Of a stretch of 49,650 nucleotides of DNA, positions 6,556-49,460 are shown piece after piece; within the stretch, counting starts at the first letter, position 1, and every line of letters starts with the position of its first letter. A model generated the notes under the pieces. That model did not search any database and had not been told where the DNA came from. It saw nothing but the letters and a program-made list of their open reading frames with translations. The stretch lies in contig JAFXDG010000083.1 in assembly GCA_017521285.1 (NCBI GenBank), positions 1 to 49,650 of the forward strand. Direction: 5' to 3'. Position numbers and translations under genes: made by a program. This DNA is from Bacteroidaceae bacterium (GTDB lineage: Bacteria; Bacteroidota; Bacteroidia; Bacteroidales; Bacteroidaceae).

Positions 6556-6580
6556 CCTGTCATAAATGATTCTATCCGTG

Positions 6581-6618
6581 AGGGGGATGCGTCTTGTTGA
6601 TGCATCCCCCTTACTCTT
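6581..6618 (+). terminator. Intrinsic terminator after the pectinesterase
   Basis: A 10-bp stem (agggggatgc at 6581-6590 with gcatcccccт-equivalent pairing at 6602-6611) encloses an 11-base loop and is followed by a T-rich tail. It begins 25 bases after the stop codon. Confidence 0.7.
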
Positions 6619-6663
6619 TATGCTATCCTTGTATCTCAAAATGGTGATAGGGTAACAATGAAG

Positions 6664-6918
6664 ATTTCAACGTCTCAACGCCGAACGAATAAACGCCCCT
6701 CTACCTTTGACCTTCGCCCTTCGACTTTTGAAATCATCGTCTCAACGCATCAACGCATCAACCCTTCAACGAATATTCGCTTCAACGTCTCAACGCCGAA
6801 CGAATAAACGCCCCTCTACCTTTGACCTTTGACCTTCGCCCTTTGACTTTTGAAATCATCGTCTCAACGCATCAACCCTTCAACGAATATTCCCTTCAAC
6901 GTCTCGACGCCGAACGAA
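6664..6918. repeat. R3 word repeats with a ~115-bp tandem duplication
   Basis: This gene-free gap consists almost wholly of the words tcaacgtctcaacgc, cgaacgaataaacgcc, cctttgacctt and atcaacccttcaacg. A unit of roughly 115 bases (from cttcaacgtctcaacgcc to caacgaatattcgc) is repeated twice in tandem with small changes. The same words return in most large gaps of the window. There is no dyad symmetry and no plausible gene; the few open frames through it are by-products of the repeat. Confidence 0.8.
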
Positions 6919-7449
6919 TCACATGGCTAACAAGTTCTTGGACTTCAATCTATGTCCAGAATAGGTCAATGCCAAAGTTATCAGCTCTTCAATGGGAATA
7001 CCAGCCTTTAATATGGAGTAAATGTCATAGTAATCTCTAAAATTACTACGACGCAGCATCACTTCCATTTTCATGGCTCCTATGGACTTGATATCCGCCA
7101 AACGCAGGTTGTTGCAATAAGAGATGGGAACTTTTACCGGAGAGTATTTAGGACTCGCATAAAAAGAGAGTTTGACATCAGAAACACGAAATTCCACATG
7201 GTCAATATCCAGAATGTCCTTTTGTTGGATTTCTCCAATAGAAGACAATTCCTTTTCAATGGCCGGCCAATCTACCTCCATGCGTTCATCCTTCTTAGTG
7301 CGCCACTTCATGAAATCAAGGTCTTCACTTTGGCGGGTTGCAATTTGGAGGGATAAAGCTGTGCCTCCAACCAACAAATAAGGTTTGATGCTCTCCATCT
7401 GAGCCACACGCTCAAATATCAATCCAGTATGTGGAGCCAATCCTTTCAT
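6919..7449 (-). CDS. AbiEii/AbiGii-type nucleotidyltransferase toxin
   Basis: The 176-aa protein carries the nucleotidyltransferase signature of AbiEii-family toxins: LLVGGTALSLQ (GG at 28-29) followed by R39-Q-S-E-D-L-D-F, giving the D43-x-D45 metal pair. In this family the toxin modifies RNA, often tRNA, and is held in check by a co-transcribed antitoxin (type IV or related). It is shorter than typical AbiEii proteins of about 300 residues, so the C-terminal domain is reduced. Its ATG overlaps the upstream stop codon as ATGA (7446-7449), the usual sign of a coupled TA pair. The gene ends directly against the R3 repeat tract. Function is inferred from family; toxicity is untested. Confidence 0.75.
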   Translation of the reverse strand: MKGLAPHTGLIFERVAQMESIKPYLLVGGTALSLQIATRQSEDLDFMKWRTKKDERMEVDWPAIEKELSSIGEIQQKDILDIDHVEFRVSDVKLSFYASPKYSPVKVPISYCNNLRLADIKSIGAMKMEVMLRRSNFRDYYDIYSILKAGIPIEELITLALTYSGHRLKSKNLLAM

Positions 7450-7787
7450 TGTATCATTCTATTATAGTGGCGGGTAGCCATAGATTTGATGTACGCATCA
7501 GGGCGCTTGGCATTAAAATAGTACCAGGCAAAGAAACGGTTCAACGTATAAAGGTACTCTTCTTGGGGAACCAAATGTTCCAGCCATACCTGCTTGATTT
7601 GTTTGAAAGGATAAAGTTTGAAAAGAAGATCAATTTCGGGCAAATCGAGGTGCAACAAAGTCTTTTCAATCAACATATCGTCAGAGATACGGTGGATTGA
7701 ATCTTCGTTGTACGACCAGAAACAATGCTCTTGTTTCAACTGTTCCAACAATACCGACTTTATGGAATCATGCTCCGCCATCTTCAT
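7446..7787 (-). CDS. Probable antitoxin partner of the AbiEii-like toxin
   Basis: The 113-aa protein has no motif I recognise with certainty. It is acidic to neutral, helical in appearance, and lies first in a two-gene unit with a 4-base ATGA overlap with the nucleotidyltransferase gene. Such small helical proteins commonly precede AbiEii-type toxins in Bacteroidales. A -7 box sits only 13 bases upstream, so the leader is very short. The start could be M1 (7787) or M3 (7781); M1 gives a nearly leaderless message. Antitoxin function is inferred from position only. Confidence 0.6.
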   Translation of the reverse strand: MKMAEHDSIKSVLLEQLKQEHCFWSYNEDSIHRISDDMLIEKTLLHLDLPEIDLLFKLYPFKQIKQVWLEHLVPQEEYLYTLNRFFAWYYFNAKRPDAYIKSMATRHYNRMIQ

Positions 7788-7800
7788 ACTTACTTTGCCG

Positions 7801-7808
7801 CAAAGATA
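7801..7808 (-). promoter_or_regulatory. -7 box for the AbiEii-type TA operon
   Basis: Read on the minus strand this is TATCTTTG followed by C, an exact match to TAnnTTTG. It ends 13 bases before the antitoxin ATG. No convincing -33 box was identified. Confidence 0.5.
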
Positions 7809-7924
7809 GTTGATATTTATGAAATGGCATGAATAATGAATGAAAAAAGTGATAAATCAGAAATTTTGGACACAGATACACCGATTAAACGAATCATTTC
7901 ACAGAGTATTGCCATCTGTAGTGC

Positions 7925-8375
7925 AAACTCCAACCAATCAACGCCCCTTGAACCTTGAACCACCCCTTCATTACAGTTCTTCCCTCCTTCGGGGGGATTG
8001 AGGGGGGCTGTTGAACCTTGAACTTGGAACTCATCGTCTCAACGCATCAACCCTTCAACGAATATTCGCTTCAACGTCTCAACGCATCAACGCATCAACG
8101 TTTGTCCACAAATTGAAAGTGCAAATAAACAGAAGCTATCTTCTCCAGCACTTATAGCTATCTTGTTTGCCCCGAGGAGCTATCTTGTTTGGCCAACTAA
8201 GCATATCTCGTAATGGCAATGGCTGTTGGCGATGGCTGATGGCTTGGAACCTTGAACTTTGAACCTTCGCCCTTTGACCTTTGACTTTTGACCTTTGACC
8301 TTTGACCTTGAACTCAACGCATCAACCCTTCAACGAATATTCGTCTCACCCCCTCAACGCCGAACGAATCAGAAA
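7925..8375. repeat. R3/R4 word-repeat tract
   Basis: The gap holds blocks of tcaacgcatcaacg and gaaccttgaacttgg (7925-8100), then tggcgatggctgatggc, then repeated cctttgacctttgac, then atcaacccttcaacgaat (8215-8375). The order gatggc words, tttgacc words, tcaacg words is the same as at 41047-41260. No gene is seen. Confidence 0.75.
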
Positions 8376-8483
8376 CTTGCCAGCTATCTCCATTGATACT
8401 GTCAAATCTCCTCCTTTTCTCTTATTTTGTATCCATCTTAAAGAAATATACATCATTTTGATGAAATAAAGTTCTTGTTTTAC

Positions 8484-8565
8484 TTTGTGGCCTCACTATT
8501 TTTATTACTTTTGCAAAAAAATGGCTCACAAAGGGTGTTCTTTTGCTGATTTTTTTCTATATTTG
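8484..8565 (+). promoter_or_regulatory. Two Bacteroidetes-type promoters before the small RNA
   Basis: The first has TTTG at 8484-8487 and TACTTTTG-C at 8506-8514 (18-base spacing). The second is an exact TATATTTG-C at 8558-8566 with no clear -33 box. They would start transcripts near 8521 and 8573. Both point at the structured RNA. Confidence 0.6.
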
Positions 8566-8572
8566 CACCGCT

Positions 8573-8807
8573 ACATGAAGTAGCAGACATAAATTAGGGA
8601 AGCGTTTAGCTTTATTCCGTAGTGGTGAACTTCGACAACTCATCTGAATATATGGAATAAGTTAGAACATTCTCCCTTTGGTTTTGTATATATGTGCTAT
8701 TGCATATACAGCCGAAGGTGTGAGCTGTTTTTTCTTATCAATATATTCAGGCAGTCGAAGGCCTACCACTACCGATAAGAAGTTGATAGGCTCACACTTC
8801 TCTTTTT
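8573..8807 (+). ncRNA. Structured small RNA, 6S RNA-like
   Basis: Three perfect long-range helices nest in order: 8619-8626 with 8765-8772 (gtagtggt/accactac), 8630-8636 with 8754-8760 (cttcgac/gtcgaag) and 8644-8653 with 8741-8750 (ctgaatatat/atatattcag). Inside them is a large open bubble (8654-8679 and 8714-8740) and an apical hairpin 8680-8713 (gg..tgtatat/atataca..cc). A long rod with one large central bubble and a closed tip is the architecture of 6S RNA, which mimics an open promoter and binds RNA polymerase; the length of about 150-235 nt also fits. No coding frame runs through it. Family assignment is inference from the fold I drew by eye, not from sequence match; another Bacteroidales small RNA is possible. 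Confidence 0.6.
8778..8807 (+). terminator. Weak intrinsic terminator of the small RNA
   Basis: agaagt (8778-8783) pairs with acttct (8796-8801) and is followed by ctttttatg. The stem is short and AT-rich, so strength is doubtful. An alternative pairing is gtgtgagc (8718-8725) with gctcacac (8790-8797). Confidence 0.4.
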
Positions 8808-8874
8808 ATGTTCCCGTCAAATAACAAGACAAAGAGAGGACACCGTTGAGCCAAGGTGCAGTATTTTTGAGGAT

Positions 8875-9615
8875 ATGGGAATGGAGAAATTTGCTAACCC
8901 GAAAAAAAATACATCCAGTGAGATTGTTCTGGTTAATTCATTAAGTGCTTTTGTCGCCGAAATAGAAAAGTTAACAAAACAATTTGAAGGACAAAAATTT
9001 GTTTATCGGGGGCATGCAAGTACATCTTACGAATTAAAGCCTTCTATCGGAAGAAATAATTATAACGAGCGGGTAGAGCAAAGTATGTTGAATGAATTTA
9101 AACGGCGTTATTATCCTTATACATCGGAGAGAGTAAATAAGAAATTAGATGTATTGTTTCTTGCTCAACACTATAGATTGCCGACAAGACTGTTGGACTG
9201 GAGCTTTAATCCATTGATTGCCATGTATTTTGCGTGTCAATCAAAATTGGAATATGATGAATCTATTCAAAGTGACAAAGAAATGGATGGAATTGTATAT
9301 GTTAGGAGTATTTTTGGCCCCTCAGAATGCTTACTTTGTGAAGAAAAAGATGTAGATCCGTTTAAAGATTTTGAAAAAAATAAATTTTTGTTACCTGATA
9401 ATTTCGATGTCCGTTTTCGTAATCAGCAAGGCTTGTTTGAAATTTTTGCAAATCCAACCCAATGTAATGATGCAGTAAAATTAAAGATAAAAGTTCTGGC
9501 GGCGAATAAAAAAGAAATACTTCTTTCGTTATCGAATGTAGGTATAACAGAAGATTTTGTGTATCCAGATTTAGAACATTTGGCAAAAAGTATAAAAAAG
9601 CAGTATGGACGATAA
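8875..9615 (+). CDS. FRG-domain protein
   Basis: The 246-aa protein has the FRG hallmark near the N-terminus (F42-V-Y-R45-G46-H) and the second conserved block AQHYRLPTRLLDWSFNPL followed by a small hydrophobic stretch, as in FRG-domain proteins. FRG proteins are of unknown activity but recur in prophages, toxin loci and defence islands. Two starts are possible, 8875 and 8881 (MGMEKF). A TAnnTTTG-like box at 8862-8869 would begin transcription almost at the start codon, so the gene might be leaderless or depend on read-through from the small RNA promoter. Base composition is clearly AT-rich, like the operon that follows, so it probably arrived with the island. Confidence 0.75.
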   Translation: MGMEKFANPKKNTSSEIVLVNSLSAFVAEIEKLTKQFEGQKFVYRGHASTSYELKPSIGRNNYNERVEQSMLNEFKRRYYPYTSERVNKKLDVLFLAQHYRLPTRLLDWSFNPLIAMYFACQSKLEYDESIQSDKEMDGIVYVRSIFGPSECLLCEEKDVDPFKDFEKNKFLLPDNFDVRFRNQQGLFEIFANPTQCNDAVKLKIKVLAANKKEILLSLSNVGITEDFVYPDLEHLAKSIKKQYGR

Positions 9616-9825
9616 ACTTCGCAGTTCGGACGAAGTAAGAAAATAATAAAAGATGTGATTACTTGAAAACGTATTCTGTTATATAATAATGATTATTGCA
9701 GTATAAAACTGTAATTATAGATATAAAAGTATTGGATACAATGGTTTGTTGAATGTTTAATTTTGAAAAACAAGCGCAATCGGCCATCTTATGAGGTGGG
9801 GTGGTTGCGCCCAAAAATATCGATT

Positions 9826-10392
9826 ATGAAGAGTGCTCTGGATAAAAAGTGGATAAACTTTGCACTGCTTGTTTTGTCATTATGCTTTTTTTGTAGTTGT
9901 TCTGCTACAATATATTGGTGTGACAAAACGAGTATAGAAGAAACGGGGGGTATTAATGTGGTAGTATTATTTGGTGGGACTACAAATCGACTTGCTAAAT
10001 TTGTCAGTTCTATATGGATTGTGGGTTTTTTGGCTATATTTCATAAGAGTCGGCTTGATAAAACTTATGAAATAACAGTTGCCGGCAAGACTCACATTAT
10101 TGATGGTATATCTGCATGGCACATGTGGCTTGGAGAAGTCTTAATAGTATGGTTATGTTTGTTTTTTTCTATACAGATATTGGAAGAAAACATAGATATG
10201 GGCGAAATGTCTTTCATGCTTAATATCTTGATATGCAGTTGTTTCGGTTTGTTTTACTGGTTATTACGTTCTTTTTTATTAAACCGTTATGTGAGTCCTA
10301 AAATGCTAAAAATTTTTATACGTGTCATTTGGTGTTTTATGGCTGTAGATTTCGTTATGTTTTGGGTATTATTGTTTTTGAAGATAAATTAA
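9826..10392 (+). CDS. Multi-pass membrane protein of unknown function
   Basis: From the ATG at 9826 the protein has 188 residues and about five hydrophobic segments: one at the N-terminus (FALLVLSLCFF), one near FVSSIWIVGFLAIF, one near EVLIVWLCLFFSIQ, one near LNILICSCFGLFYWLL and one at the C-terminus (CFMAVDFVMFWVLLFL). An upstream TTG at 9763 would add 21 polar residues; I prefer 9826 because a transmembrane segment then starts near the N-terminus. It ends 9 bases before the first zinc-ribbon gene, so it is likely the first gene of the FtsK/WXG-like operon and the only obvious integral membrane part. No family was recognised. Confidence 0.65.
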   Translation: MKSALDKKWINFALLVLSLCFFCSCSATIYWCDKTSIEETGGINVVVLFGGTTNRLAKFVSSIWIVGFLAIFHKSRLDKTYEITVAGKTHIIDGISAWHMWLGEVLIVWLCLFFSIQILEENIDMGEMSFMLNILICSCFGLFYWLLRSFLLNRYVSPKMLKIFIRVIWCFMAVDFVMFWVLLFLKIN

Positions 10393-10401
10393 ATTGTTGT
10401 T

Positions 10402-11367
10402 ATGCTTCATCAATATAAAAAATGTGTAAACTGTGGTGCTGAAATTAGGATCCAAGCTTTATTCTGTACCAATTGTGGTGCAGAGCAATCTGTAAAAGCA
10501 AAGGAACCAGAGGTTGAAGAGGGGCAACAACATGAAGTAGAGCAATCCCAATCTGGAGCTTTACTTGAGACTAAAAAATGTGTAAACTGTGGTGCAGAAA
10601 TTAGGATCCAAGCTTTATTCTGTACCAATTGTGGTGCAGAGCAATCTGTAAAAGCAAAGGAATCTAAGGTTGACGAGGTGCAACAAGATGAAGTTGAACA
10701 ATCCCAATCAGATGTTTCAATTGACCCGAAAACAGAATTTACGCCAATAAATCAGAATGATTCACCCCCAAAAAATACCATAGAACCTTCATCAACAGCA
10801 AAGGAAAGAAAAACTGTAAAAACAAACAAAAAAATAGTAGAGAATATAAGAGATTGGATTAGCATATTCCTTTTGATACTTTTCGTGTGTATAAAGTGTA
10901 GTTTGGAAAAGCAAAAAAGGTCGAATCGTAATGAAGACATTCAACAAGAATATTATAATATGTCAGATTATAATGTGTCAAATAATCGTGTAAGCTATAA
11001 TAAAGGTGTAGAGCAGAGAGAATATTCAAATCCAATGACTCTTGAACGTATATATAATGATTATGTATTTGGTAATAGAGATTTTTCGACCATTGCACAC
11101 AGTGTGTGTACCCCTAGGTTGATACGTCTGTTGAAAGATTCTTATGAATATGAATGTGAAGATGGAGAGTGTTATGCCATGTGGCTTTTCCGTAGTGGGA
11201 ATCCGGATGGTGTCAGTAATGTCTCTAAGGTTACAAACGTAACCAATGAGGGGAATGGTTGGTTCAGAGTGTCTTATCTTGATATGGGAATTGAAGGAGC
11301 TACATACATTCGTTTGATCGTATATGATGGAGTTCAAATGATGGATGAGATTAGAAGGGTTTGCTGA
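10402..11367 (+). CDS. Double zinc-ribbon membrane-anchored protein
   Basis: The 321-aa protein begins with two nearly identical zinc ribbons, each CVNCGAEIRIQALFCTNCG (cysteines at 8, 11, 22, 25 and 60, 63, 74, 77). Low-complexity acidic/Gln linkers, a Ser/Thr/Lys stretch, a single transmembrane helix near 150-170 (WISIFLLILFVCI) and a C-terminal domain of about 110 residues (from NPMTLERIYNDY to the end) follow. The topology suggests cytosolic zinc ribbons and an external or periplasmic C-terminal domain. That domain resembles small lipoprotein-like domains but I cannot name it. The ribbon region is an internal 156-bp duplication. It belongs to the island operon, 40 bases before a second zinc-ribbon gene. 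Confidence 0.7.
   Translation: MLHQYKKCVNCGAEIRIQALFCTNCGAEQSVKAKEPEVEEGQQHEVEQSQSGALLETKKCVNCGAEIRIQALFCTNCGAEQSVKAKESKVDEVQQDEVEQSQSDVSIDPKTEFTPINQNDSPPKNTIEPSSTAKERKTVKTNKKIVENIRDWISIFLLILFVCIKCSLEKQKRSNRNEDIQQEYYNMSDYNVSNNRVSYNKGVEQREYSNPMTLERIYNDYVFGNRDFSTIAHSVCTPRLIRLLKDSYEYECEDGECYAMWLFRSGNPDGVSNVSKVTNVTNEGNGWFRVSYLDMGIEGATYIRLIVYDGVQMMDEIRRVC
10417..10728 (+). repeat. 156-bp in-frame tandem duplication (zinc ribbon plus linker)
   Basis: Bases 10417-10572 and 10573-10728 align with an offset of exactly 156 bases (52 codons). The ribbon part is almost unchanged at DNA level, including the ggatccaagctt stretch, while the linker has begun to diverge. This points to a recent duplication. 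Confidence 0.85.
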
Positions 11368-11407
11368 TTTTTTATATTGTATCATTTTTATTAGTAAGTT
11401 TTGATTT

Positions 11408-12202
11408 ATGTTTTGTGAAAATTGTGGAACTAAACTAAATGAAGGTGAAAAGTTTTGTCCCAATTGTGGCAAAAAAAATGAAATGCCTTTAAGGAAAGAA
11501 GATAAAATAAATGTCGGATGTGATCAAGTTTCAAAGAAGAAAGTCAAATCTAAATATAAAAGTAATTTTCCTGGACAAGATACACGTGCTACACTTCTTG
11601 AAAAACGGACGAATGTAAATGAAGAAAAACATTTGTCTGAAGAAATGGATGAGATGGAAACTTGTAATAATACTGTAGGGCAAATGCAAAGGGCGGTTCG
11701 TTTGGAGTTCGGATTGGGTGTACCTGTCAATATAAAAAAAGCGAAAGAGTTTTATGAAAAAGCAGGATATAAATGTGAAAAAGATTTGCTTGAAGATTGT
11801 TCAGGTGTGAACGGAGTGATTTCTAGTATTTATGATGTTCGTTCCGTCGTGATTTTTGATAGAGATCCTATAGCTGAATATGAAAAAGAAGAATTGGAAA
11901 GAAAGCAAATAAAGATTTCAGAAATGTATAAAATAGAAGAAAAAGGTTTAATTAAGTTTAAGTTTTATATTCAAGGATATGATTTATGTGAATTTGAAAG
12001 GATGGTGAAAGAGTATAATCATGTAGCTTTTTTATATGGCTATGACAATATTTCTTTTGAAAAGGTTTATTTTAAAAAGGGATATTATTCATTGATTGAA
12101 GGGGTTTTTGAAAAGGGACATTACAATATTATGGTAGAAAAACAAATAGAGCGAGTTTTTATAGAGATATGTAATGTATGTGAATCTTTAAAAATAAAAT
12201 GA
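11408..12202 (+). CDS. Zinc-ribbon protein with a Sel1-like segment
   Basis: The 264-aa protein opens with one zinc ribbon (C3-x2-C6, C17-x2-C20; MFCENCGTKLNEGEKFCPNC). A basic linker follows, then a short stretch resembling a Sel1 repeat (GLGVPVNIKKAKEFYEKAGY, about residues 100-120). The remaining 140 residues are charged, with many K and E, and no family was recognised; there is no transmembrane segment. Its last codons overlap the ATPase start (ATGATG at 12199), so the two are translationally coupled. A role as adaptor or regulator of the ATPase is a guess from coupling. Confidence 0.7.
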   Translation: MFCENCGTKLNEGEKFCPNCGKKNEMPLRKEDKINVGCDQVSKKKVKSKYKSNFPGQDTRATLLEKRTNVNEEKHLSEEMDEMETCNNTVGQMQRAVRLEFGLGVPVNIKKAKEFYEKAGYKCEKDLLEDCSGVNGVISSIYDVRSVVIFDRDPIAEYEKEELERKQIKISEMYKIEEKGLIKFKFYIQGYDLCEFERMVKEYNHVAFLYGYDNISFEKVYFKKGYYSLIEGVFEKGHYNIMVEKQIERVFIEICNVCESLKIK

Positions 12203-15111
12203 TGAAGACTTTAGTTTTTGTTAAAGAATTGTTATCCTTTTATAAGGATACGGGTGATGCAGTAAGTTTTGTTAATACCTTTAATAAAATGATAAATCAA
12301 TATCCTCATCTGTTGTATCCATTGTATGGTACTGACATAAGTAGAGAAAAAGCTATATCTGTATTCCAGAATATAAAGGATAATGTAAAAAAATGTTTTA
12401 TTCCTATATTCCCAACATATTCATGTTTTACTGATTTTTTATGTGGTAGTATTATCGAGACACCTATTTTTGATAATCCATATTACGGTTTCGATACACG
12501 TATTAATAAATCTTATCTTGATGATTATTTGGTGAGTTGTTTAATTTCTTTGCAAATAAAAAAGGTTAAGATTACTTTTATAGAATTAGATGGAACATGT
12601 TATGGTGATTATTTTTATAAGAATATCAATTCTGAATTGTATAATACCATAACAACTGAATATGAATTAAAAGATTATATAGACAAATTGAAAAAAAGAA
12701 TAATATTGATGAAACAGCAATATGGAGATTATCGAGAGTATTGTTTGAGTAATAGGCTAATTCCCGTTCCTTATGAAATTTTAGTTTTTCCCGAACCTAC
12801 TGATAAAGAATCAACTTATGCATCATTGCTTTCAATGGAGAGGGAGTGTAATGCTGTAGGTGTTAAATTGATTCGTGTCGTCACAAAAGATTGGACTCCG
12901 ATTGAAAAGGATTATCGTTCACAAGAAGAACTGTTGTTGAATTTGTATGAAAACAAGATAGATTCGTTTTCTTATGAGAAATTGGAACTAAACTCGTGGA
13001 AATGTTATCATAGTGAATTTCGTTATTGTGGATTTCATAATAGAATGAGTAAATTTAATTTACATGATGAATTATATGATATAAGGTTTTCTGATTCCCA
13101 ATCAGAAGATTTTGAAAAATATAATAAAGTGGTTGATATAATAAAAAGAAGAGATGAACAGTTTGCAGGTGTAAAGAAAACAGAGTCCAAAATTCAAATT
13201 CGGAAGATACAGATAAAGAGAAAAATAGGCAAACTTTTATTTAAATGTACACCAATAGGGGAAAATTTGAGATTACGTGATGCATGTATTGAATATATAA
13301 ACAGGGAAGCTGATTGCAAGGAAGAGGCTATTGTGTTAATACAAGATTTAAGAAAACTGGCTATAAATACATACGAAAAAGATTATGAAACCATAACCGT
13401 ACCGATTGGTCAATCAGCAAATGCAGACGTGAATTTTTGCATGGATAATGTCAGTCATGTTCATTCCTTCATTATAGGTCAATCAGGTTCGGGTAAATCT
13501 GTTTTCTTGCATAATATCATTGGTTCTGCCATATTGAAATATGCTCCCGAAGATTTGCAATTGTATTTGCTTGACTTCAAGTTGGGGGGTGTTGAGTTCA
13601 ACAGATATAAAGGTATCAAACATGTGAAATCCCTGTTGGTTGATAATTCAGACCAACAGATTACACTTGAAATCTTGCGGGAGCTTCGTGAACAAATGGT
13701 TGAGCGGGGTAAAATGCTTCGCAACTGTGGAGTGAATAATCTAGTTGAATACAACAGGCAGCATCCCAATGCGGCTATGCCACAGATATTGTTGATAGTG
13801 GATGAATGTCACGAAATGTTTAGGGTGGGGAGTGATGTTCCGAGAGTTGTCAGCAATGAGATTTCGGAAATAGTGATCAAAATAGCCAAAGAAGGCCGTA
13901 GCCAAGGGGTACATTTAATATTGGCTACCCAGACGTTGTCGGGGACAGAAATAAGCAATGAAATCCTGAACAACATTTCTGACCATTACTTGTTGAAATG
14001 TGCTTCTGTAGATTCCGAGCGTATGGTTGAAAGAAGTTCTGACATAACAAAACAACTTTCTACCGGCCAAATTTATTATCACCATGTAGATAGCCAAATG
14101 CAGTTTCAGGCATACTATAATGACAAGGATGCTGTGGAAATGCTGATAAAAATGGCAAAGGAGAAAGCGGAAAAACATCGCAGTAATGATGGATTCTATT
14201 TTAATGGTTCTCAATTATTCAAATTAGATAAGGGGCTGTTGTTACAAGGTAAAAAGCATGCCAAGCATCCAGTTGCGTACATGGGTAAAAGTATCAGTAT
14301 TAATCAAAATGATTTGAGCGTCATTTTGCGGAATGATTATAGTGAAAACATCTTGTTGTTCGGATTGAATGATTTGGAACAAGTGACAAGAACAACCGTG
14401 AATCTGTTCATTTCCCTTATGTTGATGATCAAGTATAAGGGGCTGGATTATCAGTTCAAAGTCTTCAATTGTCTTTCTGATGATGAAAGCCTTTTTGTAG
14501 AGCAACTGGAAATGTTGGAAGAAGAGGGCTATTGTGAAATCATAGAAGGCCGCAAAGACAGAGGAAAGTTCCTGAAAAATCTGGTTGAAGGCATTACCAA
14601 TGAAACAGTAGAAAATACAATTCTCCTGATATTGGGTCAAGAACGTTTCCGTGAATTGAAAATGGATATGAAGATAGATGACATGGCGGAAGTAAATGAA
14701 CCGAAAGTGGATGATGCTTTTGGTTTCGGTGGCTTCAGTAACGGAAGTTCATCGTCGTATACATCTGCAAAGACTTTTAGACAAGCTTTGGAATTGATAT
14801 TGGATAAGGGACCGGAATCAGGTGTGCATACAGTGATGCAGTTGGACAAACCGTCCAATTTTCTTTTCAGTGATTATGTCTCACCGAAGATAGTTCACCA
14901 AAAATTCAAGCATTTGATTATGCTCAAATCAGATGAGGCTGCATCTGCTCAATTGCATTTGAATGATGAAATCAGATTGGAAACTTTGAGTAAAGAACCT
15001 GAGCGTTTGCGTGCTTATTACTATTCGGAGGAGAGTGACACATATACATTGTTTACACCTTACATGGGATTGGGTAAAGAAGAATTGATAAACCTTTTTA
15101 AAACAGAATAA
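12199..15111 (+). CDS. Tandem FtsK/SpoIIIE (EssC/EccC-like) ATPase
   Basis: The 970-aa protein has an N-terminal region of about 400 residues without known motifs or membrane segments, then a full FtsK/SpoIIIE ATPase domain: Walker A GQSGSGKS at 427-434, Walker B LLIVDE with D535-E536, and a sensor-like LATQTLSG block. A second domain (about 690-960) keeps the fold pattern but its P-loop place reads NILLFGLNDLEQ near 717, with no GKS, so it is degenerate. One active plus degenerate ATPase copies are the design of EssC/EccC motors of type VII secretion, which drive export of WXG100 proteins and are controlled by substrate binding to a degenerate domain. The next gene starts 2 bases downstream and encodes a WXG100-like protein. 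No membrane helix is present, so it would need a membrane partner. DNA translocase is the main alternative. Confidence 0.8.
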   Translation: MMKTLVFVKELLSFYKDTGDAVSFVNTFNKMINQYPHLLYPLYGTDISREKAISVFQNIKDNVKKCFIPIFPTYSCFTDFLCGSIIETPIFDNPYYGFDTRINKSYLDDYLVSCLISLQIKKVKITFIELDGTCYGDYFYKNINSELYNTITTEYELKDYIDKLKKRIILMKQQYGDYREYCLSNRLIPVPYEILVFPEPTDKESTYASLLSMERECNAVGVKLIRVVTKDWTPIEKDYRSQEELLLNLYENKIDSFSYEKLELNSWKCYHSEFRYCGFHNRMSKFNLHDELYDIRFSDSQSEDFEKYNKVVDIIKRRDEQFAGVKKTESKIQIRKIQIKRKIGKLLFKCTPIGENLRLRDACIEYINREADCKEEAIVLIQDLRKLAINTYEKDYETITVPIGQSANADVNFCMDNVSHVHSFIIGQSGSGKSVFLHNIIGSAILKYAPEDLQLYLLDFKLGGVEFNRYKGIKHVKSLLVDNSDQQITLEILRELREQMVERGKMLRNCGVNNLVEYNRQHPNAAMPQILLIVDECHEMFRVGSDVPRVVSNEISEIVIKIAKEGRSQGVHLILATQTLSGTEISNEILNNISDHYLLKCASVDSERMVERSSDITKQLSTGQIYYHHVDSQMQFQAYYNDKDAVEMLIKMAKEKAEKHRSNDGFYFNGSQLFKLDKGLLLQGKKHAKHPVAYMGKSISINQNDLSVILRNDYSENILLFGLNDLEQVTRTTVNLFISLMLMIKYKGLDYQFKVFNCLSDDESLFVEQLEMLEEEGYCEIIEGRKDRGKFLKNLVEGITNETVENTILLILGQERFRELKMDMKIDDMAEVNEPKVDDAFGFGGFSNGSSSSYTSAKTFRQALELILDKGPESGVHTVMQLDKPSNFLFSDYVSPKIVHQKFKHLIMLKSDEAASAQLHLNDEIRLETLSKEPERLRAYYYSEESDTYTLFTPYMGLGKEELINLFKTE

Positions 15112-15113
15112 TT

Positions 15114-15395
15114 ATGGCACAGGAAGTAGGAGTAAGAAATATTACAGAATTGAAACAGTTCGGTTGTGACTTGAAACGCTTGAGTGAACAACTTGCAAGT
15201 GCTTTCCATGCAGCGGAAAACAAAATGTATCACGTATGCGACGGTTGGAATGACAATGTAAACATCAAGTTTATGAATGAGTTTCAAAAGAATGTGAAAG
15301 AGATAGACAAGATAGCAGCTAATATGCAAGAGTTTTCTAAATTCAATGGTAAAAGTTGTGATTTGTTGGAAATGTATCAGAATAACAGTTTCTAA
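15114..15395 (+). CDS. WXG100-like small helical protein
   Basis: The 93-aa protein is predicted to be two amphipathic helices joined by a turn at CDGWNDN. From W45 the pattern W-x-D-x-V-x3-F (W45, D47, V49, F53) matches the WXG100 pattern W-x-G-x-A-x3-F except that Asp replaces Gly. Length and the mid-chain position of the Trp are those of WXG100/ESAT-6 proteins, substrates and allosteric partners of EssC/EccC ATPases. There is no signal peptide and no clear YxxxD/E tail. It starts 2 bases after the ATPase stop. Family membership is inferred from pattern and context; a coincidental helical hairpin remains possible. Confidence 0.65.
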   Translation: MAQEVGVRNITELKQFGCDLKRLSEQLASAFHAAENKMYHVCDGWNDNVNIKFMNEFQKNVKEIDKIAANMQEFSKFNGKSCDLLEMYQNNSF

Positions 15396-15406
15396 TCAAT
15401 TAGGTT

Positions 15407-15883
15407 ATGGCTGCAGATGCAAAAGTTCAAAAGGTCGAAGAATTGGCGGCATATTCCAATCATTTGGGTGGATTTATAGAATCTATGTCGAAAAACTTCA
15501 TATCTTTCAACAATGTAATGATGCAGAAATTGGAAGAGCTCCGTAAGAAGTTGAGAAAGGCTGAAGAGATGTGTGCTGAAGCGACAACTGAATGTTCCCA
15601 ATGCGAAAGAGACTTGGCCTATTGTTCTTCGGATAATAATGAAGTAAAACGAAATTTGAAAATAAGGTTGGACTACGCTATCAATAAAAGACTGGATGCC
15701 CAACAGATGAGGTCGCTTGTTTCCTCCCAATACAATGTGGCACAAGGTGTATTACGTTGTATGTTGGATGATACACAAGTCATTCAGAAAAAGTTGCGTG
15801 ATGATATTGCAAAAGGGCGTCAATTGTTAAAGAATGCGTCAATCCAATTAGAACAATATAAAGACAATTCAAAGAATGTATGA
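15407..15883 (+). CDS. Coiled-coil protein, unknown function
   Basis: The 158-aa protein is almost wholly helical with strong heptad character (KLEELRKKLRKAEEMCAEA, later QKKLRDDIAKGRQLLKN). Three or four cysteines cluster at about 58-73 (C-x7-C-x2-C-x6-C), which could bind metal or form cross-links. No signal peptide or transmembrane segment is present. It lies 11 bases after the WXG100-like gene and overlaps the next small gene by ATGA (15880-15883). Its place between two WXG100-like genes suggests an LXG-like partner, chaperone or structural part, but no family was recognised. Confidence 0.65.
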   Translation: MAADAKVQKVEELAAYSNHLGGFIESMSKNFISFNNVMMQKLEELRKKLRKAEEMCAEATTECSQCERDLAYCSSDNNEVKRNLKIRLDYAINKRLDAQQMRSLVSSQYNVAQGVLRCMLDDTQVIQKKLRDDIAKGRQLLKNASIQLEQYKDNSKNV

Positions 15884-16116
15884 ATCCGTTACAGTTGATG
15901 AATAATGATATGGCTACATTGATGCTGAGTTCTAAAAAGGTGTTTGAACATTGGAACGACAAAGTAGCAGAGGGAATGAAGAATGAATGCATTGCAGACA
16001 TTCAACGTTCTTGGAATGAGTATATAGATAAAATTAATACACGAATGAATATCTATATGCGAGCCGAAAGGGAAATAGATGATGCTATAGACCACTATGA
16101 GCGGAATAGAAGGTAG
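15880..16116 (+). CDS. Second small W-N-D helical protein
   Basis: The 78-aa protein is helical and carries W25-N-D-K-V29 followed by N35-E36, matching the first small protein's W45-N-D-N-V49 and N55-E56: W-N-D-x-V-x5-N-E in both. A second tryptophan motif (W44-N-E) lies mid-chain, the usual WXG position. The two proteins are otherwise dissimilar, so they may form a heterodimer, as ESAT-6/CFP-10 do. The ATGA overlap with the upstream gene implies coupled translation. A 77-base gap follows before the next gene. Confidence 0.6.
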   Translation: MNPLQLMNNDMATLMLSSKKVFEHWNDKVAEGMKNECIADIQRSWNEYIDKINTRMNIYMRAEREIDDAIDHYERNRR

Positions 16117-16193
16117 CAAAACAAAAGATATTATCAAAGATGATTTCTAACTAATGATAAATGAACATACAAATAAACACTCATTTATGAGGT

Positions 16194-17066
16194 ATGAAAT
16201 ATTCAGACGTATTTCTTAATTTTGCAGAATTGGGGGCAAAGATGGACACAATACATGCTCTGCATATCTTGTGTGATGCATATATTGATATGTGTGGCAT
16301 TTCATGTGGAAATCGCACGGTTTATTACAGAGCAGGTGAAGGATGGTTGAAAAAGTTAGGAGAGTCTGATCATGAACTTGCTCTTGATGCCCGAAACCGT
16401 CTCTTGGTTTGTATGTTTCCATTTATCAACAGCCGGTACACGAAGGTGTACGATGACTATGATATTTCCCCCATGTCAGATGAGCAATGTAGAGAGATGG
16501 CAGAAGAACTCCTGAAGGAGAATGGTGATAATGAAGAGTTGGCAAAAGCGCTATGTGCTGGTATCGTTTTTTCAGATGAATCAGAAGATGAACTTAGCTT
16601 CTTCAATGCTGAAGAATGGTTTTTAAGTTATGTGAAAGCCCTCAATGGTGATTCTTACAAGATACTTTTGTTCAGGTCTGAGTTGGAAGAACCACAAATA
16701 AAGTTTCATCTGTTCCGTAGTGAAACTCTCATGAAAGATTTTCATTTTGCTATTGATTTTTCGTGTTTCTTGACTGAAGGTGATTTGAAACTGATTTATC
16801 AAAAAGACAAAGAAAAAGAATTGGAAAAGACTGGAGATGCTTGCTCTTGGAATGGATATGAAGAGATTCGTGATCTGTTGTTGGATCATCCTAATGCACC
16901 AGTCAACAAAAGGTATAGATACTTTGAAAATCAACTTCATGAAATGGTTGTCAATCACGACTATTGTGCAAGGCGCATGCATACAATGAGTGTGATGGAG
17001 AAGATTGGCAAACTCGGAGTACCACTACTTCCGAAATATGAGAAAATTTTGAAAGATTGTAGGTGA
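16194..17066 (+). CDS. Unknown island protein, 290 aa
   Basis: I do not recognise a family. The protein is soluble, acidic, with alternating helical and charged stretches, several Trp and Cys residues and no signal peptide or membrane helix. A strongly acidic middle (about 100-135: ELLKENGDNEEL, DESEDELSFF) and a KDKEKELEK charged patch near 205 are visible. It follows the small W-N-D genes and precedes two WG-repeat genes in the same orientation with only 17 bases to the next. It may be a cargo, immunity or regulatory protein of the island; nothing in the sequence decides this. Confidence 0.6.
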   Translation: MKYSDVFLNFAELGAKMDTIHALHILCDAYIDMCGISCGNRTVYYRAGEGWLKKLGESDHELALDARNRLLVCMFPFINSRYTKVYDDYDISPMSDEQCREMAEELLKENGDNEELAKALCAGIVFSDESEDELSFFNAEEWFLSYVKALNGDSYKILLFRSELEEPQIKFHLFRSETLMKDFHFAIDFSCFLTEGDLKLIYQKDKEKELEKTGDACSWNGYEEIRDLLLDHPNAPVNKRYRYFENQLHEMVVNHDYCARRMHTMSVMEKIGKLGVPLLPKYEKILKDCR

Positions 17067-17083
17067 TTATTAATTCATAACAC

Positions 17084-17800
17084 ATGTATCCATTTGACGA
17101 AGAAAACGAACTGAAGCCTTTGACTCGCGAAGCGTTGGAGGACTTCTCAAACAGGTGTGCAAGCTTGAACATATATAAGAAGGACACACCTGAATATGAA
17201 GAGAAATGGACTGAACTTTGGTGTGAAGCCGAAGAGTTTCAACCGATGGAGGGATTTGTCCATATTGCTCAGGAAAACGGGAAGGAAGGGGTCAGGAATG
17301 ATTTCTTCAATAATTGGATTGTTCCACCCGTATTCGATAGAATTGTTGCAGGAACGAATATGAACGATAACTACATAGTGAAGAATGGGGGTAAATATGG
17401 AGTTGTCCGGGCCGATGGTAAAGGTACATGGGTGTGTCCCTGCAAATATGACTGTGTGGAGACGTTGGAAAACCATATTGATGTGATAAAGGTTGGCATA
17501 AATGGGAAATATGGTGTCGTTGAATTGTGTAGCGGTGATTGGGCAAGGGAAAGAGTGGAACCCGTCTATGATGATATTCAAGAAACGGATGGCGGGTATC
17601 TTGTCTTGAAAAAGGATGGTAAATGCGGGTTGTATAAATATGGAACCATATTGCCGGCCGAATATGAACGTATCTTTGTGCCTGTCATTATGGGTTGGAT
17701 TAAAGTGGTGAAGAATAGGGTATGGGGATATGTTGATAGCGACAATGAATTTACCGAGAATATAGAAAAAGCATTTTGGTGTAATATTGCAAACTTATGA
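17084..17800 (+). CDS. WG-repeat protein 1
   Basis: The 238-aa protein has about five WG-type repeats, seen as NGKEGVRND, GGKYGVVRADGKG, NGKYGVVEL, DGKCGLYKYG and NRVWGYVDSDNE, each followed by a PxxYD-like strand turn (CKYDCVE, PVYDDIQ, AEYERIF). WG repeats build beta-sheet scaffolds used for binding. The first 55 residues are helical and acidic. There is no signal peptide, so it is expected in the cytosol unless exported by another route. It overlaps the next WG-repeat gene by 4 bases (ATGA). Confidence 0.75.
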   Translation: MYPFDEENELKPLTREALEDFSNRCASLNIYKKDTPEYEEKWTELWCEAEEFQPMEGFVHIAQENGKEGVRNDFFNNWIVPPVFDRIVAGTNMNDNYIVKNGGKYGVVRADGKGTWVCPCKYDCVETLENHIDVIKVGINGKYGVVELCSGDWARERVEPVYDDIQETDGGYLVLKKDGKCGLYKYGTILPAEYERIFVPVIMGWIKVVKNRVWGYVDSDNEFTENIEKAFWCNIANL

Positions 17801-18651
17801 GGCCGACACCTTTACAAAGGGAAAAAAGATTGCAGGAGCGGTTAATGAATGCATTTGATGGCAAAATTCCTGTAATATTTGAAGAAAACGGAAGGAAAGG
17901 GGTGAAGATGGATAGTGGGGAATTGGTTGTTCCGGCTGTATATGATTCCATTGAATCGGAAAAAGATTATTTCCACTGTTATCGGTATGTTGTTGTGAAG
18001 GATGGTAAATATGGACTCGTCGATATTGGAACTTCCATGATTCTGGACAGGGAATGGCTTGTTTTGTTGGATGTGGAACTGTTGTTTCCTTGGGAAGATG
18101 ATTGGAAAGGCAATGAAGACGTGGTTATTTGCCAGAATGGTACGTATGGAATATGGGACTGGCACGTGAGGTTAGAGCCTGTATATGATTCTATCCGTAA
18201 AATCAGGGACTCTTCCGAATGGCTGGTATGCAAGGAGGGGAAATATGGTGTTGTCGGGATTGATAGCCGTTGTGCCCCGCTTCCTTGTGAATATGATGAA
18301 ATAACCTTGGTATGTTATGAACAAGAAGGGTTCATCAATTCCAGCTTCACACCCTCGGCATATTATTTGTTGAGACAAGGGGATAAGTTCGGTTTGTGGA
18401 CTGCTCACGGTCATAGTATGAAATCTCCCTTGTTCCTGCCTGTTGTATATGATGAAATACTTCCTCCCACAGATGATTGGGGACTCAGGTTGATAAAAGA
18501 TGGTGTCTGTGGGTATTTGGACAAGGAGTGTAATTTCACCCCAAACTTATTCGAAGTTCCGCTTTGGTGGGAAGAATACTATTATTATAGTGAAGCCGCA
18601 AATGACCGTATCTTTCGCTTTCAGATTGAGAAAATGCCAATTTCCCATTGA
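17797..18651 (+). CDS. WG-repeat protein 2
   Basis: The 284-aa protein has about six WG repeats (NGRKGVKMDSGE, DGKYGLVDIG, NGTYGIWDW, EGKYGVVGID, GDKFGLWTAHG, DGVCGYLDKE), each followed by a VYD or EYDE turn. It is a divergent paralogue of the preceding gene, to which it is coupled by an ATGA overlap. No signal peptide is present; the N-terminal 30 residues are polar and basic. Two adjacent WG-repeat proteins at the 3' end of the operon suggest recognition, inhibitor or scaffold functions. That role is inference. Confidence 0.75.
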   Translation: MRPTPLQREKRLQERLMNAFDGKIPVIFEENGRKGVKMDSGELVVPAVYDSIESEKDYFHCYRYVVVKDGKYGLVDIGTSMILDREWLVLLDVELLFPWEDDWKGNEDVVICQNGTYGIWDWHVRLEPVYDSIRKIRDSSEWLVCKEGKYGVVGIDSRCAPLPCEYDEITLVCYEQEGFINSSFTPSAYYLLRQGDKFGLWTAHGHSMKSPLFLPVVYDEILPPTDDWGLRLIKDGVCGYLDKECNFTPNLFEVPLWWEEYYYYSEAANDRIFRFQIEKMPISH

Positions 18652-18905
18652 GCCATCATAAAGATGATATTCGGGAAAGGGGGATGGTGACGAGTGAAGA
18701 GCTACAAGCTACGAGTAACAATTTTCAGAACTTATTGCCACGTTTCTTGTCTATCTTCTCGGCAAGTTGCTATCGTGATACCTCCTTCGCCAACGATGAA
18801 GAGCGACTGGAATGTTTGTTCAAACTGTATGAGAAGATGACGCGGATGACGCAGATAAATTATGACCTTTATTCGCCCTTTCGGCTCATCGAAAACCTCT
18901 TTTGA
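18648..18905 (+). CDS. Doubtful small ORF closing the island operon
   Basis: A frame of 85 codons starts with TTG overlapping the upstream stop (TTGA), or with ATG at 18685. The first half (to about DEERLECLFKLYEK) looks like real helical protein. The 3' part (KMTRMTQINYD onward) is encoded by the R2 palindrome, so the natural C-terminus was probably replaced or the gene was cut by the repeat. It may be a remnant, not a working gene. Confidence 0.35.
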   Translation: MSHHKDDIRERGMVTSEELQATSNNFQNLLPRFLSIFSASCYRDTSFANDEERLECLFKLYEKMTRMTQINYDLYSPFRLIENLF

Positions 18906-18975
18906 TTTTTTCATTAGGGTATGGTCGGGTATAATAATCAAGAAAAATCCGCGTCATCTGCGTCTAAAAAGTTAA
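18840..18975. repeat. R2: palindromic repeat, copy with long centre
   Basis: Left arm gatgacgcggatgacgcaga-taaattatgacc and right arm aatccgcgtcatctgcgtct are inverted complements. Reverse-complemented, the whole element lines up with 38570-38660 (same gacgcagatgacgcggatt start, ttattatacccga, then ataatttatctgcg). This copy carries about 45 extra bases in its centre. It marks the right edge of the AT-rich island. Confidence 0.75.
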
Positions 18976-19085
18976 TTTTGACTCCAATGGATATGTAAAG
19001 CTGCCATTGAGAAGAATACCATTCATCAAACTATTTGTGTGGGTAGATTGTTTGTAAGGGAAGAGACTTCTTATAAGGTTACATT

Positions 19086-20072
19086 ATGAACAATTTATCT
19101 ACCACTTTTGCAGGATTGACGTTGCGCAATCCGTTTATTGTCAGCAGTTCGGGACTGACGGATACAGCCCCTAAATGTTTGATATTGGAAGAGGCTGGTG
19201 CGGGGGCTGTGGTGCTGAAATCCATTTTCGAGGAACAGATTATGCAGGAGCATGACCATTGGTATAATCCCGACAATGCTGAAGGGGATGATTACCTGAG
19301 TACTTACCTGCGTGCCCATTCTCTGTCGGAACATATCGGATTGATAGAGGAGGCCAAGCGTCTTTGCAGTATTCCAATCATTGCCAGCATCAACTGTACC
19401 ACCGCTACGGAATGGGCACAGTATGCGGGTATTGTGGAACAGGCCGGTGCTGATGCGTTGGAATTGAACATTATGGAGGTGCAGACGGAGATGGACTATA
19501 AATATGGGGACTATGAACGGAAGCACATTGAGATATTGGAACAGGTGCGCCGCTATGTACGTCTGCCCATTATTGTCAAATTGGGTATGAACCTGACAAA
19601 TCCGGTGACGTTGGTCAACCAACTGTATGCCAATGGGGCTGCAGCAGTGGTCATGTTCAACCGTCCGTACCGCCCCGACATTGTGATAGAGAGCCTGAAA
19701 TTCCATGCAGGTGAGATGTGGACACGTCCGTCTGACATTGGTGAGGCTCTTCGATGGGTCGGTATCTGTTCAGCACGTATTCCCCATCTGGATTATGCCG
19801 TTTCGGGTGGTGTACACGACGGGTGGGCTGCTGTAAAGGCACTGTTGGCCGGGGCTTCAGCTGTTGAAGTATGTACCACACTTTTCTGGAATGGCTCCAA
19901 ACGTCTTGCGGTGATGCAGGAACAGATGCAACAGTGGATGGAGGAGCATGGATATGATAATATTCCGACATTCAAAGGGCGCATGAACCTGAATGCCGAT
20001 GAGGGAGACCAGTTGTATGGGCGTACTCAGTTCATGAAGTATTTCAGCGGATATAAAGGTAAAGATCAGTAG
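19086..20072 (+). CDS. Dihydroorotate dehydrogenase-like flavoprotein
   Basis: The 328-aa protein is an FMN-type TIM barrel of the dihydroorotate dehydrogenase superfamily: the N-terminal substrate loop (GLTLRNPFIVSSSGLT), a core strand with PIIVKLGMN, and the phosphate-binding AVSGGVHDGWAAVKALLAGA near the C-terminus. The active-site loop that in class 1 enzymes reads N-x-S/T-C-P-N is NIMEVQTEMD here, so the catalytic cysteine is absent. It is therefore probably not the pyrimidine enzyme but the related Bacteroidetes 'dihydroorotate dehydrogenase-like' protein of unknown substrate. It stands alone, converging on the helicase gene. Confidence 0.8.
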   Translation: MNNLSTTFAGLTLRNPFIVSSSGLTDTAPKCLILEEAGAGAVVLKSIFEEQIMQEHDHWYNPDNAEGDDYLSTYLRAHSLSEHIGLIEEAKRLCSIPIIASINCTTATEWAQYAGIVEQAGADALELNIMEVQTEMDYKYGDYERKHIEILEQVRRYVRLPIIVKLGMNLTNPVTLVNQLYANGAAAVVMFNRPYRPDIVIESLKFHAGEMWTRPSDIGEALRWVGICSARIPHLDYAVSGGVHDGWAAVKALLAGASAVEVCTTLFWNGSKRLAVMQEQMQQWMEEHGYDNIPTFKGRMNLNADEGDQLYGRTQFMKYFSGYKGKDQ

Positions 20073-48207: not shown

Positions 48208-48732
48208 ATGGATATCAGAATAGAAGGTAATCCGGGTACGGGCAACACCTTTCAGGAGATACATATCGGCCATGTGGAGACCTATGCCCCTGCAGCCACC
48301 ACAGTGATCAACAATCATTATAGTGACCGCAAGCCACCCCATACTCCGGCTGATACCGTCAGTCAGGATACTGATAAGATTCAGTGTCGCGGAGAGATTA
48401 TGCAATATGTCTGCAACCTCAAGGAAAAGGATTATGTGGCTCCGGCGTGGAAGAACCGTTACGAAACCCTCTGGCGTTCCATTCTCGACATTCCCGAAGT
48501 TGCAGCTGCCATTTATAAGGTTGGCAAACAGAAGGACACCACTTTCAATCGGAATCTGGTAGCCAATATTATATATATAATGTGTAAGTCAGGCGTTATC
48601 TCCGAGCAGAATGCCACCAGACTCACCGAAGCCTTGGAAGGTAACAAGGAACATTCCGTTCGTGCCCAGTTGGGCAAGTTGCCCGACGATGCTGGAATTG
48701 CCAGAAAAATCAAGCAACAGCTTGAACTGTAA
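48208..48732 (+). CDS. Unknown protein with shared N-terminal motif (partner 1)
   Basis: The 174-aa protein has an N-terminus of about 38 residues (MDIRIEGNPGTGNTFQEIHI, then GHVETYAPAATTVINNHY) that is repeated in the next gene. The remaining 130 residues are helical (ending KIKQQLEL), have no recognised family and no signal peptide. The spacing to the next gene is 8 bases, so the two are co-transcribed. A role as an adaptor-type partner of the second protein is inferred from the shared motif. Confidence 0.7.
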   Translation: MDIRIEGNPGTGNTFQEIHIGHVETYAPAATTVINNHYSDRKPPHTPADTVSQDTDKIQCRGEIMQYVCNLKEKDYVAPAWKNRYETLWRSILDIPEVAAAIYKVGKQKDTTFNRNLVANIIYIMCKSGVISEQNATRLTEALEGNKEHSVRAQLGKLPDDAGIARKIKQQLEL

Positions 48733-48740
48733 ATAGCCTT

Positions 48741-49460
48741 ATGGACAACCATTCAGAGGGTAATCATGGTCATCACAACACCTATCACGAGACCAAGATG
48801 GACAATGTGGGGACCTTTTGTCCCGCAGCCACTCATGTGGTGAACCATAACAATTATAACCTTCCACTGCCCCCCAAGGATATCAATGCTCTTTGCGCGA
48901 ATAGTGAAGAGCCGTCGGGTCAGGCGGCCGAGGTCATACTACTGAGAAAGGACTTTAATTTCGACGAGATCCATCGTAAGATTGCAGCGTCCGAGGAGGT
49001 CCTGATTTTCGGATTGGGATGCACGGTCACCATCAATCTCATGTACGACAAGTACATCAATCTCCAGTCGATAGACCAGCATATCAGTTTCCTCTTTATG
49101 GATTCTGAGGGATGTGCCGTAAAGATTGCCGCATACAGGGAAGGAAACCCCGTTAAAGACGTAAGAAAACAATACCGCAAGAATTGGAGCAAGATCCAGG
49201 CACTGGCAGAAAAATTTCCCGGGAAGATACATTTCAAGAAGATAGACTATCTCCCTCCCTATAATTTGTTCATCTTCAATCCCGGGCAGGACAATGCCGA
49301 ACTCTATGTTCACATAGCCGGTTGGAAGTCCGCCTCCACCGATGGCCGTCCTTTGATAGTGCTTCACAAGCAATACCACTCATATTGGTTTCAGTACTTC
49401 CTGTCGGAATTCAAGCGAATGTGGAATCTCCCGTGTTGTGTTATGAACAAAATGCCATAG
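48741..49460 (+). CDS. Unknown protein with shared N-terminal motif (partner 2)
   Basis: The 239-aa protein starts with EGNHGHHNTYHETKMDNVGT, then CPAATHVVNHNNY, the same pattern as its neighbour: EGN-x-G-x2-NT, a V-x-T, P-AAT-x-V and N-x-Y. After a linker (about 40-75) a domain follows with EEVLIFGLGCTVTINLMYDK and a C-terminal IFNPGQDNAELYVHI and RPLIVLHKQYHSYWFQYF. The alternation resembles phospholipase D-like or DUF5919-type sensor/effector folds, but no catalytic HKD motif is clear. It may be the effector of a two-protein system. Confidence 0.7.
   Translation: MDNHSEGNHGHHNTYHETKMDNVGTFCPAATHVVNHNNYNLPLPPKDINALCANSEEPSGQAAEVILLRKDFNFDEIHRKIAASEEVLIFGLGCTVTINLMYDKYINLQSIDQHISFLFMDSEGCAVKIAAYREGNPVKDVRKQYRKNWSKIQALAEKFPGKIHFKKIDYLPPYNLFIFNPGQDNAELYVHIAGWKSASTDGRPLIVLHKQYHSYWFQYFLSEFKRMWNLPCCVMNKMP

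Follow-up and report, generated by a model that had tools for sequence, protein, structure and literature searches.

The operon at positions 9826-18651 of the 49 650-nucleotide stretch of Bacteroidaceae DNA analysed here (contig JAFXDG010000083.1 of assembly GCA_017521285.1; the whole stretch is called the window) encodes an FtsK/EccC-like ATPase together with three small proteins, s1, cc and s2, and this gene order recurs in other loci. On balance, we favour reading the operon as a type VII-like module of diderm bacteria that is mobile and membrane-less and handles effectors of the cc type. Descriptions of type VII secretion present it as machinery of Bacillota and Actinomycetota. With the Bacteroidales module one can ask in concrete terms whether the EccC-WXG100 pair can work without a membrane complex, in the cell or over two membranes. 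The operon consists of 10 co-directional genes on the + strand, separated by 9, 40, -4, 2, 11, -4, 77, 17 and -4 bases (negative values are overlaps). This agrees with a first-pass annotation of the DNA, which had described a ten-gene single-strand operon with overlaps of 4 bases or gaps below 80 bases. The core of the module is formed by four consecutive genes:

12199..15111, + strand: FtsK/EccC-like ATPase of 970 amino acids (FtsK_SpoIIIE PF01580, 2.7e-29; EccCa, 2.8e-31, below the curated cut-off)
15114..15395, + strand: s1, WXG100-like hairpin with W45-x-D47 (s1 family profile A1 against EsxA, ~1e-6)
15407..15883, + strand: cc, predicted two-helix hairpin (AlphaFold; family profile A3; collinear with the N-termini of proteins of loci L137 and L138)
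15880..16116, + strand: s2, second small protein, with W25-x-D27 (W-x-D motif; profile-profile match to s1)

The conserved core and its distribution

Taken singly, the s1 protein of the window matches WXG100 models weakly (PF25547, 0.011; ESAT6_2, 0.008; both below the cut-off). The family profile A1 matches Staphylococcus aureus EsxA (2vrz) at 9.9e-7 over positions 9-90 of 93, and also SAG1039, gbs1074, EsxB and the Helicobacter protein HP0062 (0.009); its nominal top match is a designed repeat protein, of which the single pieces are not significant. By these sequence matches s1 is a WXG100 relative, and the earlier proposal of an EccC-like ATPase next to WXG100 relatives is supported. All 19 s1 proteins carry a W-x-D motif with invariant tryptophan and aspartate, and W-x-G was not encountered among them. 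The motif is also present in nine of nine s2 proteins. The best PDB match of s2 is an EsxA (0.021), and profile-profile comparison of s2 with s1 gives an E-value of 1.6e-6 over 32 columns.

The ATPase profile A4 matches the structures of EccC/EssC (4nh0, 2.5e-46), EccC5 (2.4e-39), YukB (2.6e-32) and FtsK (1.5e-26). There is one Walker A motif per ATPase, in the central part of the protein, in all 11 of 11 sequences; in the window protein it lies at residue 427, with Walker B at 530. The first-pass annotation had called the protein a tandem FtsK/EssC-like ATPase: the family assignment holds, with a Walker A motif in only one FtsK domain. The flanking thirds match the profile of the central domain weakly (2.6e-6 in L055, 3.2e-4 in L038 and 3 in the window), and the AlphaFold model of the ATPase, built from four sequences, has a pLDDT of 39.5. 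A tree built from 33 domain segments separates the ATPases of the module from 11 FtsK and four EccC segments with support 98/96; an ATPase from a Helicobacter plasmid and that of the viral contig L053 fall inside the module group. Twelve FtsK loci were given for this tree and 11 are represented (L015 has no row), the four EccC segments come from two proteins, Bacillota EssC and L138 are not included, and the row of the third domain of L055 is a long-branch fragment.

Sixteen loci with flanks were compared: the window, L003, L035-L043, L055, L137, L138, L176 and L177. For fifteen of them the genome or record places the source in Bacteroidales. The sixteenth, L055, comes from IMG/VR, and we infer a Bacteroidales host for it because this contig is near-identical to L043. 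The arrangement of ATPase, hairpin, cc and hairpin is met again outside the window and is thus more than a chance association. Every one of the 16 loci has an s1 protein after the ATPase, in 13 of them directly, so ATPase homologues routinely devoid of the small proteins were not found in this set. One open reading frame (ORF) stands between the ATPase and s1 in L042 (zinc ribbon and Sel1), L177 (504 amino acids) and L137 (291 amino acids; by eye, a split-off part of the ATPase). The cc protein is present in 15 of the 16 loci and is placed after a second hairpin in L043, L055, L138 and L176; in L043 and L055 it is assigned by position only, because the cc profile does not list these proteins. 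The s2 protein is present in 14 loci, and in L138, where it comes after an immunity-type gene, it is recognised by motif and position only. The contig of L037 ends before any cc or s2, that of L177 ends just after cc, and the ATPase of L138 is an end fragment recognised by eye. The neighbours of the core vary and include zinc ribbon, Sel1 or TPR, GYF_2 and Lcl_C proteins.

The core module is rare. A search of 301 genomes of the family with the ATPase gave nine genomes with a match at E <1e-50, the own genome included; at 1e-10, 286 of the 301 match, and the weaker ones listed, mostly frames of ~800-900 amino acids, are read as housekeeping FtsK. The s1 profile A7 is positive in 12 of the 399 genomes searched within the family (high-quality genomes, 4 of 207), and profile A1 in 4 of 393 genomes at the level of the order and in 2 of 395 kept at the level of the phylum; each count includes the own genome, and the three genome samples overlap. 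Four of the six s1 matches of the phylum search were dropped (E 8.8e-4 to 0.007, in frames of 338-1196 amino acids). In the families of two order-level carriers, one of two and one of six genomes are positive, in each case the carrier itself.

The cc slot, the accessory genes and the insertion

The cc protein of the window is modelled as a two-helix hairpin (helices 2-71 and 78-156; AlphaFold, two sequences, pLDDT 89.5). A fold search with this model gave generic helical matches only, none at E 0.001 or better, and an LXG fold is therefore not claimed for cc. Likewise, profile A3 matches generic coiled coils in the PDB (60 of 217 matches listed). In two loci the slot of cc is occupied by longer proteins. 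The slot protein of L138 (309 amino acids) has a C-terminal HNH domain (3.3e-5) and is followed by a gene with a SUKH-1 match (2.6e-4, below the Pfam cut-off). That of L137 (470 amino acids) has a GNAT match (7.9e-4, just below the Pfam cut-off), and no immunity gene was recognised at this locus. The N-termini of both proteins align with profile A3 across the greater part of the profile, in L137 at residues 2-160 (E 1.1e-5) and in L138 at residues 4-132 (0.0096); gene order is the stronger argument for linking these fusions to cc, because coiled coils are prone to false matches.

On a plasmid of Helicobacter sp. the order is W-x-D hairpin (PF06013, 4.6e-5, below the cut-off), WHH-nuclease protein (WHH domain, 1.1e-11), annotated SMI1/KNR4 gene, 77-amino acid protein and ATPase; the coiled-coil part of the WHH protein is not listed by the cc profile. 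SUKH immunity genes accompany polymorphic toxins, those of type VII secretion systems (T7SS) among them (PMC3482391). The toxin and immunity genes found in the same slot of a few relatives suggest that the module is probably a weapon or a defence system.

The six other genes of the operon, three on either side of the core, are the following:

9826..10392, + strand: mem, multi-pass membrane protein of 188 amino acids (four hydrophobic segments; no Pfam match)
10402..11367, + strand: zr1, protein with two zinc ribbons (PF13248, 3.3e-14), one hydrophobic segment at residues 145-163 and an extra C-terminal domain
11408..12202, + strand: zr2, zinc ribbon protein (PF13240, 3.8e-7; Sel1 PF08238, 3.5e-4, below the cut-off)
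16194..17066, + strand: accessory protein of 290 amino acids (no Pfam, PADLOC or NCBIfam match; no ORF at the corresponding place in L003)
17084..17800, + strand: accessory WG-repeat protein 1 (PF14903, 8.6e-11)
17797..18651, + strand: accessory WG-repeat protein 2 (PF14903, 2e-4, below the cut-off)

An alternative start of mem, TTG at 9763 instead of ATG at 9826, is possible. In the Pfam scan of the operon, genes 1, 7 and 8 have no match, and genes 5 and 6 have weak matches below the cut-off. The zinc ribbons and WG repeats, taken as system parts in the first-pass annotation, lie outside the conserved core. WG proteins were seen in the window and in L003 and in no other locus, as far as its proteins were scanned or read.

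The operon lies within a larger inserted segment:

6556..19083, no strand: inserted island of ~12.5 kb, ends approximate (empty site in G597, locus L154; G541, L156; G555, L155)

The site is empty in three of the six loci examined from the same genus, and the flanking pair was not seen in the other three. Relatives of 628-6555 match at 80% over 1372 amino acids (G597), 50% over 1503 (G541) and 42% over 439 (G555), and those of 19086-20072 in the same genomes at 81-83% identity. The two flank relatives are spaced by 141, 84 and 120 bases, respectively, and the DNA alignment with L154 leaps from position 6555 of the window to 19084. No 12-mers are shared between the ends of the island (600 bases at either end). 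The GC content is 30-41% in 2 kb segments over 8-19 kb and 40-52% in the other segments. The island also contains an AbiEii gene (PF08843, 1.1e-13) with a neighbour gene at 7446-7787, the two together spanning 6919-7787, and an FRG-domain gene (8875-9615; 9e-27; PADLOC candidate PDC-S15). Integrase, resolvase or VapE genes are found near the module in L039, L003 and L038, and an Abi_2 gene adjoins the module of L003. The empty sites and the patchy spread show that the module is mobile.

Possible modes of action

In the reading that we favour, the ATPase would be a hexamer of FtsK/EccC type, active in its central domain alone, and would recognise a helical assembly composed of the two W-x-D hairpins, s1 and s2, and the longer helical hairpin cc. 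It may thread or remodel this s1-cc-s2 assembly. The cc protein would serve as an effector carrier with a variable C-terminus as its payload, which appears toxin-like in some relatives, at times with an immunity-type gene next in line. The window cc has no payload domain; its cargo would therefore be a separate protein, with that of 16194-17066 as a candidate, or has been lost. Docking to the membrane, if any, would occur through locus-specific partners, in the window mem and zr1. This reading, which seems to us the better bet, spans both export and intracellular use and so overlaps with its rivals.

Several observations weigh against it. Two membrane helices are expected near the N-terminus of EccC/EssC, and a hydropathy scan of 14 ATPases found no hydrophobic helix within residues 1-119 of any of them. 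Five of the 14 have one internal hydrophobic segment each above the threshold, taken to be buried strands. The lead of 4nh0 over FtsK in the profile comparison is the sum of three domains, the best one reaching 96.7 bits against 96 in total for FtsK. The EssC model TIGR03928 scores the own housekeeping FtsK as high as, or slightly above, the ATPase of the module. It also matches in 8 of 14 control genomes and was rejected as a discriminator, since it does not separate the two proteins. The membrane proteins adjoining the module differ among loci, or none is seen. The window cc and nine others have 154-171 amino acids, which leaves no room for a toxin domain, and the SUKH (L138) and GNAT (L137) matches stay below the Pfam cut-offs. 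Direct BLASTP of the L137 protein against cc gives nothing (E 0.84), and in the A3 search s1 proteins and an ORF of a viral contig (L065, 0.0018) score between the L137 and L138 fusions. Finally, WXG100 proteins carry the C-terminal pattern HxxxD/ExxhxxxH (PMC3935865), which is present in one of 12 s1 proteins (mean of shuffles, 2.0); in s2 it is present in five of nine, a borderline result (shuffles, 2.3; p 0.05).

The main rival is an intracellular defence or stress machine, in which the ATPase and the hairpins would hold or release a cc effector in the cell, for example on phage infection, with no export. We regard this as possible rather than probable. The start of the ATPase without a membrane helix, the lack of a shared channel among the loci and the rarity of the C-terminal pattern in s1 are all consistent with it, as are the AbiEii and FRG genes of the same insertion, the Abi_2 gene beside L003, the Prok-JAB, ThiF/E1 and NACHT genes beside L176 and the similar gene set within CoCoNuT loci (PMC11090510). 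However, elsewhere the relatives of WXG100 proteins are exported or act as partners in export (PMC11217815), and the association of SUKH immunity genes with polymorphic toxins, including those of T7SS, argues in the same direction.

The kinship of s1 with WXG100 proteins, the toxin and immunity-type genes of relatives, mem and zr1 speak for export; the membrane-less ATPase, the missing shared channel, the missing canonical C-terminal pattern and the defence-like neighbours speak against it. As a tentative extension, Bacteroidales might deploy exchangeable cc-fused toxins with cognate immunity through the membrane-less W-x-D module over a putative two-membrane path, as a Gram-negative counterpart of LXG/T7SSb.

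A complete contact-dependent type VII-like secretion over both membranes, in which mem and zr1 would supply the missing channel, appears unlikely. It accords with the hydrophobic segments of mem and zr1 and with the toxin and immunity-type genes of relatives; yet in L003 the place of mem is taken by a 203-amino acid protein without hydrophobic segment, and the hydropathy of zr1 stays just under the threshold there (1.49 vs 1.6). The analysis found neither a membrane channel common to the loci nor a canonical export pattern, and none of the operon proteins was recognised as an outer-membrane part. The other core parts of type VII systems had already been reported as not visible, and scans of the operon proteins recognised no EsaA, EssA, EssB, EccB/D/E or YukD (Pfam and NCBIfam; Pfam only for WG-repeat protein 1).

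That the ATPase is a DNA pump of FtsK/HerA type, with the small proteins as accessories, is very improbable: the FtsK/SpoIIIE domain, the FtsK chains also matched by the ATPase profile and the mobile-element neighbours would fit, but housekeeping FtsK falls outside the group formed by these ATPases, s1 is related to WXG100 proteins, and no relaxase or conjugation gene was seen among the few neighbours scanned.

Described systems and further loci

The first-pass annotation knew the gene set as no described system. In kind this no longer holds, since similar sets have been reported. Footnote 6 to Table 1 of Zhang et al. (2012; PMC3482391) lists a solo WXG protein with a distinct YueA-like ATPase as 'mobile versions of T7SS' in diderms including Bacteroidetes, and the ATPase in that paper has three domains, of which the middle one alone is active. 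The window module resembles these mobile systems in its small WXG-type protein, single central Walker A motif, mobility and Bacteroidetes host. No cc partner, W-x-D signature or toxin is named in the footnote.

The type III-A CoCoNuTs have an EssC-like/WXG100 extension forming a membrane-less set (PMC11090510), and the same paper cites Anantharaman 2012 for stand-alone WXG100/FtsK operons. Shared with the window module are an ATPase with only the central domain active, as judged in the module from its single Walker A motif, the absence of transmembrane domains, two WXG100-like proteins and a coiled-coil nuclease fusion. However, the CoCoNuT set is embedded in a system of Type IV restriction kind that includes vWA genes, whereas the window module stands alone. 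The CoCoNuT ATPase has an N-terminal coiled coil, unlike that of the module, and one of its hairpins has WxG and the other no motif, in contrast to W-x-D in both kinds here.

In Helicobacter pylori, HP0062 (with WRD) is encoded near an FtsK/SpoIIIE gene; the names given to HP0062 and HP0066 are WxG and FtsK paralogues, respectively, and a group of gene clusters that carries the label 'WXG100 secretion system' lists an HNH/ENDO VII nuclease (PMC3397514, PMC4978471). The HP0062 hairpin with WRD, the FtsK/SpoIIIE gene and the nuclease are points of likeness, by gene content rather than gene order; the cluster differs in its phylum and in a DnaK homologue.

The systems T7SSa-T7SSj of Garrett et al. 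(2024; PMC11217815) are those of Gram-positives, and 'Bacteroid' is absent from the available text of that paper. They share with the module an EccC/EssC-family ATPase and a WXG100 protein as core. They differ in their membrane-bound ATPases, for which four NTPase domains are predicted in T7SSc-j, and in the ubiquitin-like TsxB that most of them have; neither feature was found for the window module.

The literature search found no paper on the s1-cc-s2 gene order. As far as this search shows, four findings are new: the order s1-cc-s2 in Bacteroidales, the W-x-D signature that runs through it, a locus of this order of bacteria in which a cc-nuclease protein is accompanied by a SUKH-type gene, and the evidence from empty sites. 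The signature and the gene order together provide a search handle for such modules.

Outside cellular genomes, gene content was examined in six of 80 loci on viral contigs, and of these six only L055 has a module of Bacteroidales type. At 12582-14666 of L055 the module adjoins, by eye, prohead-protease-like and capsid-like genes, and because of these neighbours it may sit beside a prophage. In the IMG/VR contig L053 (5946-9686) a related ATPase starts, by eye, with a zinc-ribbon-like stretch and adjoins coiled-coil-like and, by eye, vWA-like proteins. A search of viral contigs with the L035 ATPase found nothing. There are 175 phage records with a match (20 of the 175 listed), all below 60% identity and none covering 80% of the query. 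Plasmid records gave one match at 1e-20 and 633 at 1e-6 (60 of the 633 listed; three loci examined).

Two Bacteroidales loci have additional genes. In L177, the 504-amino acid protein between the ATPase and s1 (7530-9044) has no Pfam match, and the close relative L035 is without it. In L176 (1-12503; G1164:C38), genes for Prok-JAB (1.4e-10), ThiF/E1 (2.1e-22), TonB_C (2.8e-11) and NACHT (3.7e-14) proteins come after a pair of W-x-D hairpins, cc and s2, so that a type VII-like module stands beside a ubiquitin-like enzyme pair. In the window itself, two adjacent proteins encoded at 48208-49460, close to the end of the contig, have N-termini that are alike.

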